From the NCBI GenBank assembly GCA_019614645.1, contig JABWDB010000002.1, positions 20,387,501 to 20,451,500 of the forward strand: a stretch of DNA of 64,000 nucleotides, written 5' to 3'. Of this stretch, positions 45,175-64,000 are shown in pieces (position 1 is the stretch's first letter; the number at the start of each line of letters is the position of its first letter). The translations under genes and the position numbers were made by a program. The stretch comes from Stratiolaelaps scimitus. Lineage: Eukaryota; Arthropoda; Arachnida; Mesostigmata; Laelapidae. A model generated the notes under the pieces. That model was not told the DNA's origin. It searched no databases and saw only the letters and a list, made by a program, of their open reading frames with translations.

Positions 45175-45724
45175 TCCAGACTAGTAGAAATAGTGGTAGC
45201 AGTAAACGTAACTGCAATTTCGAAACCAGTTCCTTCAAGGCAGCCGAAAGGAATAAGTTGTTTCACATTGATCACGTTCCTATTACATGGGTATTATTTT
45301 TATATTAGTCTTGTTCTTGACAAGGCCTTATATGCCCCTATAGATGGAACAAGAACGTACTTGCTATGCTGTTGCAATGGGCCGTCCCAGATGTTCATCT
45401 AAACAAAGCCGGCTGTCGAAGAAAGCTGCAGGTTTCAGGTCTTTAGTCTTCCAGACTAGTAGAAATAGTGGTAGCAGTAAACGTAACTGCAATTTCGAAA
45501 CCAGTTCCTTCAAGGCAGCCGAAAGGAATAAGTTGTTTCACATTGATCACGTTCCTATTACATGGGTATTATTTTTATATTAGTCTTGTTCTTGACAAGG
45601 CCTTATATGCCCCTATAGATGGAACAAGAACGTACTTGCTATGCTGTTGCAATGGGCCGTCCCAGATGTTCATCTAAACAAAGCCGGCTGTCGAAGAAAG
45701 CTGCAGGTTTCAGGTCTTTAGTCT
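45175..45724. repeat. Perfect 275-bp tandem duplication (two copies)
   Basis: The block 45175-45449 is repeated directly at 45450-45724 with period 275 bp, and I saw no difference between copies. Each copy encodes the same frame ending GPSQMFI. The identity implies a very recent duplication or an assembly artefact. Confidence 0.9.
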
Positions 45725-46226
45725 TCCCTCGTTGAATAGAATATCTAGTTGTGTCGTTATACTTTACAGCAAGTTTACGCCATAAAACATCTATCGAGAC
45801 ATTGTGTGCCTAGTGAAACTAACTGCTGGGTTTATCAGCTCGTCACGACGGCCGAAGTTGCTGTCGAATTACCTGGTATATAAGCCAGCTTAGGAACACA
45901 TTAGCTCAGGGGAATATATATATCCCGAATGGTGATATTAATGTCAGGGCGAACCAGGCAGGGTTGGTCCTTTTCTTGGCCTTCCGTCTCTGGTCCCTAT
46001 TCCTTCTTGCTTTTGGCAATAAACGACGACCTCTCCGCCCAGCCTTTCCCGTAGGCCCATCTAAGAGCAGCCAGCACAACCATCAGCAGCAGCAGCGAGG
46101 CCAGTGTATCGCTGGAAAAGAACCTTGCTACGCTGAGAAAAACCTTCGTTGCAATTCCAGCGTCTTGACGGTGAGCAAGAGCCGTTATGCTGCTAAGCTG
46201 TGAAAGGAGCAGAGCAATGCGTGAGT

Positions 46227-58673: not shown

Positions 58674-58920
58674 TGTTAAGCTACTTCACAATGGTTCCCG
58701 TGCCATTCATATTAGAGACAATATTCTGTGCGCTGACTTGATACAATTTTCTTCATGAAGTTCCTCTGTCACCGAACTCGAATCGGTCCACGTTACTTGT
58801 CTGACGCAAAAAGAATTGCACAGTGTGCAGGGTGCACAATGACAATTCATGCGAATGTATTTATGCCAAATGCACAAAATATTGTTAATCGCTGCTGTGT
58901 AACCATGAGGACACTTACGT

Positions 58921-60585
58921 CTAGAGTCCACTTCCAAATCCGTGAGTCATTGTTACTTCTTCGTTTGGGTGTTTATTATTAAGCGAGAGTGGAATTGAGA
59001 TTGGTATTGGAATAGGAATACTGATGCCCTTCTCCAGCGCGGCCTTGCCAGCCTTCTCGATGGCCTTACCGATCTTCTTGAGGCCCTGAAACAATTACAT
59101 TGTATGTGAAGACTTCGCCGCCTAAGAACAACGTCGAAAGTAATTCATGTAGGACGAGAGACGCAGACGAAAATTCGTACCAACCTTTCTAATTTTTTTT
59201 CCAAGCCCATACATCATGACCTGCTCCGACTTCGCGTCGATAAGTTCAATAGCCTCGACAAACTGGCCAAGTTCTTCAAAGGAGACCGTGGTGTCGTCGC
59301 CGTCGTCGTTTTGGTGCTCGACCTTTGCGAAAATGGAGATGTTGAACGATGCACCATGCTCCAAGGCTTTTTTGGCACCTTTTTCTATTGCACGGCCTAT
59401 CTTCTTGATACCCTGTATATTCAGTTTCGAATTACAGCAAACGTGTCCGTGTGTCATTAGCTTTGTAGATCAGACGCCTGATGAAACTTCTCTAAATCTA
59501 GGAGGACATACGGAATAGACCCACCTATATCGAAGTATACCTCATATTTTCTTCAGCCTTTATTGCACATGCGTGAGTGAATTTGAGTCAGCTCTCGGTG
59601 AGGCGTCTTAGAACAACCTATATGAAGGTATTACATACCACAGACTATTGGCGTTCCAATATGACTCAAGATCCTTTCCTGATGTAAAATACTAGAGACT
59701 GTTCATATTAAATAATGAGCTAAGCAGGCTGCCGCAATATGTCTCCTGAGCCTGTAAGGCATCTGACCAAGTGCTACAATATATTCAAAAATAACAAAAT
59801 CTGAATTGTATATACTGTGTATAAACGAATTCACCTTTCGAATCTTCTTGCCCAATCCGTACGTGGTAACACCGCTAGCAGCATTCATTGATTCGAGGGC
59901 TCCGAGAACGGCGTCGAGATCATCGAGCGTTAGGGCGTCACTCTCCGGCGCGGATTCATACCTAGTTTTGGCCAATATTCCTAACTTTGTCAGTAGATCA
60001 AGTGATAAACGTAATCGGAACGAAATATTGATAAGGAACGAAGTTTGCTTTTAATTTTCTCTGTACGATTGACTCATTTGTCACGTTCATCAGCTTCTCG
60101 AGGCTGGTCCTCGTTTTTTTGCAGATTATCGTCAAAATGACTAAACAGAATTAATTTGCATGTACCTTTGGCTATCAATTGCTCTACAGAACCTAAACAA
60201 CAAAGACATCATATACAATACTCACTTGACGGGCACCGCACCTGGAAGCATGTGTGAACACATGGTTAAACTATATATATATAAATAAATATATACGAGC
60301 TTGTGGGTTACCTCACAACTATTCTTCACTGAACAACGTCGAAGGCCTCACTTGCACCATGCGAAAAAAAATTCATGGATATACCATGTACCATGTACAT
60401 CTCAGTTTAAATATCAGAATATATATATATATATATATAGTAATGTATGCTTATATTTAAATAATGCATAACAAGCAGACTTCATAACATGATAAGCAAT
60501 TTTACACAGCGTGGCTAGTAAGTACTTTCGTACCAGCGTAAGCTGCCAACCCAACGAGCGCTAGCAGAAGAACAGCGGACTTCAT
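58921..60585 (-). CDS. Secreted two-module cecropin-like antimicrobial peptide precursor, 5 exons, 195 aa
   Basis: Exons in transcript order: 60585-60534, 60241-60226, 59961-59835, 59412-59185 and 59085-58921. All introns are GT-AG and the exons join in frame to a TAG stop. Residues 1-17 (start MKSAVLL, end AYA) form a signal peptide with an AxA cleavage site. Residues 24-56 are acidic with no basic residue. Module 1 spans about 57-96: YGLGKKIRK, then GIKKIGRAIEKGAKKALEHG, then a short hydrophobic stretch. Residues 97-132 form a second acidic spacer. Module 2 spans about 133-161: YGLGKKIRK, then GLKKIGKAIEKAGKAALEKG. Residues 162-173 alternate Ile with Pro or Ser. Hydrophobic residues recur every 3-4 positions across each exon junction, giving a Lys-rich amphipathic helix of net charge about +8. 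This resembles the N-terminal helix of insect cecropins (family knowledge). Membrane-active antimicrobial function is inferred. There are no cysteines. A venom or salivary helical peptide is the main alternative. Confidence 0.85.
60420..60439. repeat. (AT)n microsatellite in intron 1 of the peptide gene
   Basis: About 20 bp of alternating AT inside the 292-nt first intron. Confidence 0.85.
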
Positions 60586-60619: not shown

Positions 60620-60658
60620 CGACTGCGATTCAGGGAACATTTCACGTCACTTTATAGA
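60620..60658 (-). promoter_or_regulatory. Core promoter (TATA box and initiator) of the peptide gene
   Basis: Read on the minus strand, a TATA element TCTATAAAG lies at 60658-60650. An arthropod-type initiator CAGTC lies at 60625-60621, with the A at 60624 about 30 nt downstream of the TATA element. This predicts a 5' UTR of about 39 nt before the ATG at 60585. The spacing is what is expected of a TATA-Inr promoter; the start site itself is inferred. Confidence 0.6.
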
Positions 60659-60674
60659 CGATCACGCAAAGTAC

Positions 60675-60684
60675 GGGACACTCC
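60675..60684 (-). promoter_or_regulatory. Rel/NF-kB-like site upstream of the peptide gene
   Basis: The plus-strand decamer GGGACACTCC matches GGGRNNYYCC at every position. It lies at about -51 to -60 from the inferred start site, where Rel sites sit in immune-inducible insect peptide genes. One decamer can occur by chance; its position and the nature of the downstream gene make it credible. Confidence 0.5.
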
Positions 60685-63362: not shown

Positions 63363-64000
63363 CGTTAAGGTTATTCTCTAGTTATTGTTTTCATTGTCTA
63401 ATTATTATAGCTCAATTATTCTGTCTGTCCACACCCCCGCGTTGAACGCCTCCTTTCTGACTTGCTCCAAAGCTCATCATTTAGTCAGTCTATGAACATT
63501 GTCGGCTTTCGCCACCCGTGATCGCGGTGGAACTGCACCATGCTGACAATGATGTTCCTTTTCAACGGGGATAGCTTTGGAAATCCCCGAATCTCGGCAG
63601 GAACTGGGTGAACAAGGGAGTTAATTTCCATTCTGATCGTTCCAGCTGTTCCTTTATGTTAGATAAGTTTTCTCTGAGCAAAGTCGCTGGAGTCAGTTTC
63701 AGAATGGCATCTCAATACTGCCTCGCTGGCAATTAGCATTACATTAAAATGACACGCTGTATCAATTACTGATACACGATCTGTTGTCGTGAGCGTTTGC
63801 TTGTTTGTCTGGCTAGCTGACTGTATGTTGAGCCAGCAGCGCTCGTTACTTATTGACACGAACAATTTTATAGAGCAAGCGTGCTATGTTCTTTGTATGC
63901 AGTATAATTGTGAAGAAATATTACAGTTACACTGATTCATAGAAATTGGCAACTGTAAATCGTCTCACTTACGTTCAACACAATGTCTATATTAATCGTA
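62363..64000. other. No gene recognised
   Basis: AT-rich DNA with the (TA)23 array. A minus-strand GTAAGT donor near 63974 could belong to an exon largely outside the window. Confidence 0.4.
63316..63361. repeat. (TA)23 microsatellite
   Basis: 46 bp of uninterrupted alternating TA. Confidence 0.95.

Follow-up and report, generated by a model that had tools for sequence, protein, structure and literature searches.

The 64,000-nucleotide stretch of Stratiolaelaps scimitus DNA analysed here (the window) carries, at 58921-60585 on the minus strand, an intron-containing gene whose predicted product is a secreted precursor with two Lys-rich amphipathic helices, each preceded by an acidic segment, and in which the repeat unit coincides with an exon. 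The gene is confirmed at the sequence level as real beyond chance, because its homology to a protein of the mite Tropilaelaps mercedesae runs across a predicted splice junction and because synonymous saturation between its helix copies is accompanied by conservation of the protein. An antimicrobial role is the probable, predicted function of this conserved exon-repeat precursor.

The initial annotation had drawn a five-exon frame encoding a signal peptide, two acidic segments and two Lys-rich helix modules, and our analysis reproduced this model at the same place, the signal peptide being judged by eye. The joined coding frame of 588 nt gives 195 amino acids plus a stop, all four introns (292, 264, 422 and 99 bp) have GT-AG ends, exons 1 to 4 end in phases 1, 2, 0 and 0, in that order, and the splicing as drawn is a prediction. 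The exons are as follows.

60534..60585, minus strand: exon 1, signal peptide MKSAVLLLALVGLAAYA; intron phase 1.
60226..60241, minus strand: exon 2, a 16-nt micro-exon and the least certain exon; intron phase 2.
59835..59961, minus strand: exon 3, acidic segment 1 and the initial third of helix 1 (YGLGKKIRK); intron phase 0.
59185..59412, minus strand: exon 4, the 76-aa repeat unit of phase 0-0, with the remainder of helix 1, the SFNISIF tail, acidic segment 2 and the initial third of helix 2.
58921..59085, minus strand: exon 5, the remainder of helix 2, the Ile/Pro tail, VTMTHGFGSGL and the stop.

Exon 2 is an uncertain detail of the model. A four-exon alternative without it, in which exon 1 is joined to an acceptor before 59980, keeps the frame open over 196 amino acids and alters only the residues between the signal peptide and acidic segment 1; two more in-frame N-terminal joins exist and are less plausible.

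The modules of the predicted protein follow one another as signal peptide, short linker, acidic segment 1, helix 1 (GLGKKIRKGIKKIGRAIEKGAKKALEHG), SFNISIF, acidic segment 2, helix 2 (GLGKKIRKGLKKIGKAIEKAGKAALEKG) and Ile/Pro tail, with net charges of -6 and -10 for the first and second acidic segments and of +8 for each helix. The helical hydrophobic moment reaches 0.66 in one helix, a value matched by none of 5000 shuffles, and 0.56 in the other (shuffle p 0.0018). These properties support the earlier description of a secreted precursor made of several modules, its cationic amphipathic helices set apart by acidic spacers. An AlphaFold model of exon 4, built with the Tropilaelaps protein (P0001, see below) as alignment, places helices at 2-32 and 45-69 with a pLDDT of 56, so that the cationic part and its tail, and acidic segment 2 as well, are helical in this low-confidence model; P0001 modelled alone has a pLDDT of 46. 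Both models are of low confidence and too poor for fold inference. A strand-like reading of the SFNISIF tail was set aside, with an alternation test giving p 0.28 and the low-confidence model making the tail helical.

A search of about 5.8 billion proteins, in which relatives must share 5-residue words, yielded a sole clear relative, BIW11_07224 of T. mercedesae (P0001), an unnamed hypothetical protein whose homology to the window protein, module order included, is significant (E 1.6e-27). The alignment continues through the predicted exon 3/4 junction and takes in the acidic segment and the tail besides the helix, so the similarity amounts to more than Lys/Ala composition. The gene had been called apparently undescribed, which holds in so far as it matches no named family, but not entirely, given this relative. 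Stratiolaelaps is a laelapid by the title of a paper (PMC7936031), and the title of another reference places Tropilaelaps in Laelapidae; the insect setting in which the initial annotation had discussed cecropins does not apply to a laelapid mite. A two-sequence profile search returned P0001 again, together with P0002 at E 2.8, and a module-profile search, whose length limits leave out P0001, returned P0002 only (E 0.21). P0002 (113 aa, ENA) looks bacterial by eye, has only a Lys/Ala-rich run in common and was taken as a chance match.

The two mite proteins share the acidic segment, the motif TYG[LF]GK[KR][IL]RK, the stretch G[IL]KKIGRAIEKGAKK and a short hydrophobic tail, and the repeat spacing of about 78 aa in P0001 is close to the 76-aa unit of the window protein. 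They differ in that P0001 has three units, against two helix modules in the window protein. The complete middle unit of P0001 is 78 aa long and its helix has decayed (GLEKIGHILNGGSYKG), while the other two units keep theirs. The P0001 model has no signal peptide; its initial M falls at the second residue of one unit and its end lies inside another, and since it starts and stops inside units, the gene model is probably incomplete.

In the window gene, introns 3 and 4 are both of phase 0 and interrupt the helix at the same point, after GLGKKIRK, so that exon 4 is one entire repeat unit between two phase-0 introns; in Tropilaelaps the unit is known from the protein alone. A whole-unit exon of phase 0-0 could be gained or lost without a frame shift, and we infer that module number changes through duplication or loss of whole exons. 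Between the two helix copies 23 of 28 codons differ, and 17 of these 23 differences are synonymous (pS 0.93, pN 0.17; Fisher p 5.8e-10 on rounded site counts); pN between the acidic segments is 0.47 over 21 ungapped codons. This comparison indicates that purifying selection is strong on the helix, where pS is saturated, and weaker on the acidic segment.

The end of exon 5, VTMTHGFGSGL followed by the stop, resembles the Tropilaelaps stretch VTYGFGKRLRK and would be what remains of the beginning of a third module that has decayed. One further element stands beside it.

58913..58918, minus strand: GTAAGT donor-like site, 2 nt past the stop, at the expected donor position of the next repeat exon.

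GTAAGT occurs eight times in 64 kb on the strand of the gene, and the copy at 58913-58918 may be left over from a repeat exon that was lost or may belong to a 3'UTR intron; a search for a relic exon downstream of the gene, as far as 54000, found none.

The gene appears to be single-copy. Exon-by-exon searches of the genome (426,401,914 bp in 145 contigs), scoring three candidates each, gave three matches at E <= 0.001 with the window protein and two at E <= 10 with P0001, all of them the gene's own exons, and no convincing further copy was found within the window (next best E 5.7) or in the 10 kb past its end (best E 8.1). In the window as a whole, 10 of 42 stop-to-stop frames of at least 120 aa had no Pfam family at E <= 0.01, and no tRNA or Rfam RNA at gathering score was detected over 1-64000; such a frame scan would miss short exons, and the neighbours of the gene are unnamed. 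Positions 45175-45727 hold two perfect tandem copies of a 275-bp unit (100% matches, no indels), which point either to duplication in the very recent past or to an artefact of the assembly. In viral contigs, 112 stretches fitted the pattern and none was confirmed.

The initial annotation had described the modules as cecropin-like and could match them to no named family. The likeness stands for the helix but does not extend to family membership, and the second statement agrees both with the protein searches and with Pfam, where ten families appeared at E <= 10 and none exceeded its own cut-off. The best of them, CitG (E 0.032), and the other sub-cut-off families were taken as chance, and Cecropin (PF00272), covering residues 145-156 with E 9.9 and 6.5 bits where the cut-off is 25, ranked last, below the other nine. 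A genome scan with PF00272 gave no match over the cut-off and two below it (C13, E 0.256; C1, E 5.12), neither being the window gene; in a control scan, 1 of 14 genomes had a sub-cut-off match. Nothing convincing emerged from the translations of the C13 and C1 places or from tblastn searches in which the two mite proteins served as queries (best E 1.3). Cecropin membership was rejected on these profile scores. Searching the PDB by sequence and by profile gave no significant match among natural peptides of known structure, the closest being a cecropin-like peptide (GLKKLGKKLEGAGK against GLKKIGKAIEKAGK; E 0.28, and 1.3 by profile). Two designed dTor repeat proteins headed the PDB list (E 1.2e-9 and 8.4e-8) and were discarded as sums of 12 and 9 stretches of less than 5 bits each.

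The traits of cecropins given in one source (PMC6929098) include a Pro/Gly hinge with a hydrophobic C-terminal segment, short precursors of 58-79 aa, and Trp at position 1 or 2 in most members, some dipteran ones lacking it. The window protein has the basic amphipathic helix of the cecropin type, as judged from its charge (+8) and moments, and like insect cecropins it combines a Lys-rich helix, with a GLKKIGKAIEK pattern like that of one solved cecropin-like peptide, with a hydrophobic segment behind it. It differs from them in having two modules in 195 aa rather than one peptide, acidic spacers and, it appears, an Ile/Pro or SFNISIF tail in place of hinge and second helix: Gly is followed by SFNISIF or ISIPIPIPI with no clear hinge and second helix, and the low-confidence model runs helix 1 through the tail. 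Trp is absent from the whole protein, which is not a strict criterion.

Parallels in architecture come from other multipeptide precursors. Spider venom linear-peptide precursors, as outlined in PMC8290080, consist of a signal peptide, an acidic propeptide and cationic peptides with anionic linkers, and the window protein shows each of these elements by sequence; like the complex and binary precursors (cupiennins, oxyopinins and others), it places several cationic helices and anionic linkers in one chelicerate precursor. The spider linkers, however, end in PQM or iPQM motifs (Arg with Glu), and such linker ends are missing from the window protein. A motif scan of its 195 aa found no furin-type RXXR site and no PQM motif; a single iPQM-like tetrad, RAIE, lies within a helix, as do all seven dibasic pairs, so cleavage at dibasic sites would cut the helices up. 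P0001, on the other hand, carries five PQM-like and four iPQM-like tetrads, some close to helix starts, among them ENER (137-140), eight residues ahead of a helix; EKNR (217-220) closes the last unit, after which a further helix would come, and processing of the spider type may occur in Tropilaelaps. Spider sequences were not among the matches of the protein searches with the window protein or the profiles. Baramicin and, cited alongside it, apidaecin are tandem antimicrobial precursors, termed a 'protein operon' in PMC8423362; they too release tandem related peptides from one precursor, but Baramicin has furin RXRR sites where the window protein has none, and the peptides are of different kinds. 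Polyprotein antimicrobial genes are already known as such.

Two candidate promoter elements lie together within 65-100 bp upstream of the ATG.

60651..60656, minus strand: TATAAA box; it precedes the ATG by about 70 bp.
60675..60684, plus strand: kB-type motif GGGACACTCC, of the form GGGRNNYYCC; the TATA box is 18 bases away.

The window contains four GGGRNNYYCC sites, fewer than the shuffle mean of 8.44, and the expectation for a 150-bp stretch is about 0.01-0.02. The motif was spotted while reading the upstream sequence, without prior prediction, and its weight was lowered for this reason; as one kB-type site, it hints weakly at immune induction. The minus strand carries another kB-type site, GGGGATTTCC, at 63579-63588, which puts it some 3 kb upstream of the gene.

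On balance we favour, with somewhat better than even confidence, a secreted precursor of two Lys-rich amphipathic, membrane-disrupting antimicrobial peptides that would be masked by the acidic segments until cleavage and would likely be immune-inducible. Its starting points are directly visible: the open frame, the module order, the opposite charges of spacer and helix, and a helix conserved between copies and with Tropilaelaps. In the proposed mechanism, infection would drive transcription through the kB-type site by way of Toll/Dorsal, removal of the signal peptide would let the precursor leave the cell, and the acidic segments would balance the positive helices and keep them harmless until a protease cut the precursor, perhaps at the conserved Y|G that precedes GLGKK or GFGKR; helix-plus-tail peptides of about 30-45 residues would then be freed, insert into anionic microbial membranes and kill. 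This reading is supported by the P0001 homologue, the selection on the helix, charge and amphipathicity, the kB motif with its TATA box, the signal peptide, the Toll pathway reported in Acari for which BLASTp gave no canonical peptides, and the precedent of other tandem antimicrobial precursors, and it is weakened by the lack of RXXR or PQM sites that would free the helices, by the single homologue, by the Pfam and PDB non-matches and by the low pLDDT.

The same peptides could instead serve as salivary or venom cytolysins, aimed at prey in the predatory mite or at host tissue in Tropilaelaps, rather than as immune effectors. We regard this as unlikely: the precursor logic equals that of the spider venom peptides (PMC8290080), Stratiolaelaps is a predator (PMC7936031) and P0001 has ENER shortly ahead of a helix and EKNR where a unit closes, but the window protein lacks PQM motifs and a kB-type promoter motif suits immunity better. 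A true, highly diverged cecropin, in which a single-peptide gene was duplicated internally in mites, strikes us as improbable. The position of the hydrophobic tail after the helix, the cecropin-like nature of the best natural solved peptide and the PF00272 row speak for it, yet scores of this size (6.5 bits against 25; E 0.28 and 1.3) amount to no significant homology, the genome has no PF00272 match over the cut-off, precursor and tail differ, and Lys-rich amphipathic helices easily converge.

A secreted protein that stays whole, with a function in storage, lipid binding or signalling and its opposite charges forming an internal helical bundle, appears less probable still: no cleavage site can be recognised between the modules of the window protein and acidic segment 2 is also predicted as helical at low confidence, but charge asymmetry, amphipathicity and selection are concentrated on the cationic helix while the acidic parts drift more, and in Tropilaelaps the helix has decayed in a single unit, the other two retaining it. 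That chance open frames were joined by eye where no gene exists is scarcely credible. The short exons, the micro-exon and the choice of more than one N-terminal join would allow it; the P0001 homology across the junction and the synonymous saturation alongside protein conservation tell strongly against it.

The antimicrobial reading bears on a reported gap in mite immunity. A 2025 survey (PMC12027997) reports that BLASTp turned up none of the canonical antimicrobial peptides in Varroa or any other Acari examined, except for putative ctenidin homologues in Varroa and Galendromus only; the same text describes an intact Toll pathway for Varroa and further Acari, cautions that genes as short as these escape BLASTp, and notes that genetic readouts of mite immunity are missing. 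A defensin response has been reported in Dermanyssus (PMC9937463), so the statement that mites have no antimicrobial peptides is not absolute. Among the matches listed in the open literature, no paper treated the family of the window gene: by title, none on laelapids and antimicrobial peptides dealt with mite peptides, a paper touching on Tropilaelaps, cecropin and antimicrobial peptides mentions Tropilaelaps a single time, for a sequence placed in a defensin tree, and the Tropilaelaps genome paper contains neither the word 'antimicrobial' nor the word 'defensin'.

We tentatively suggest, as a possibility short of even confidence, that laelapid mites own an unrecognised family of immune polyproteins built on a symmetric repeat exon with a splice junction inside the helix, in which dose and diversity would grow by exon duplication, and that this family may be the 'missing' inducible system of mites without canonical peptides. 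The gene would then offer a candidate effector and a readout gene for mite immunity, both in a predator sold for biological control and in a parasite of honey bees. It would also illustrate clearly how peptide modules multiply by entire exons.
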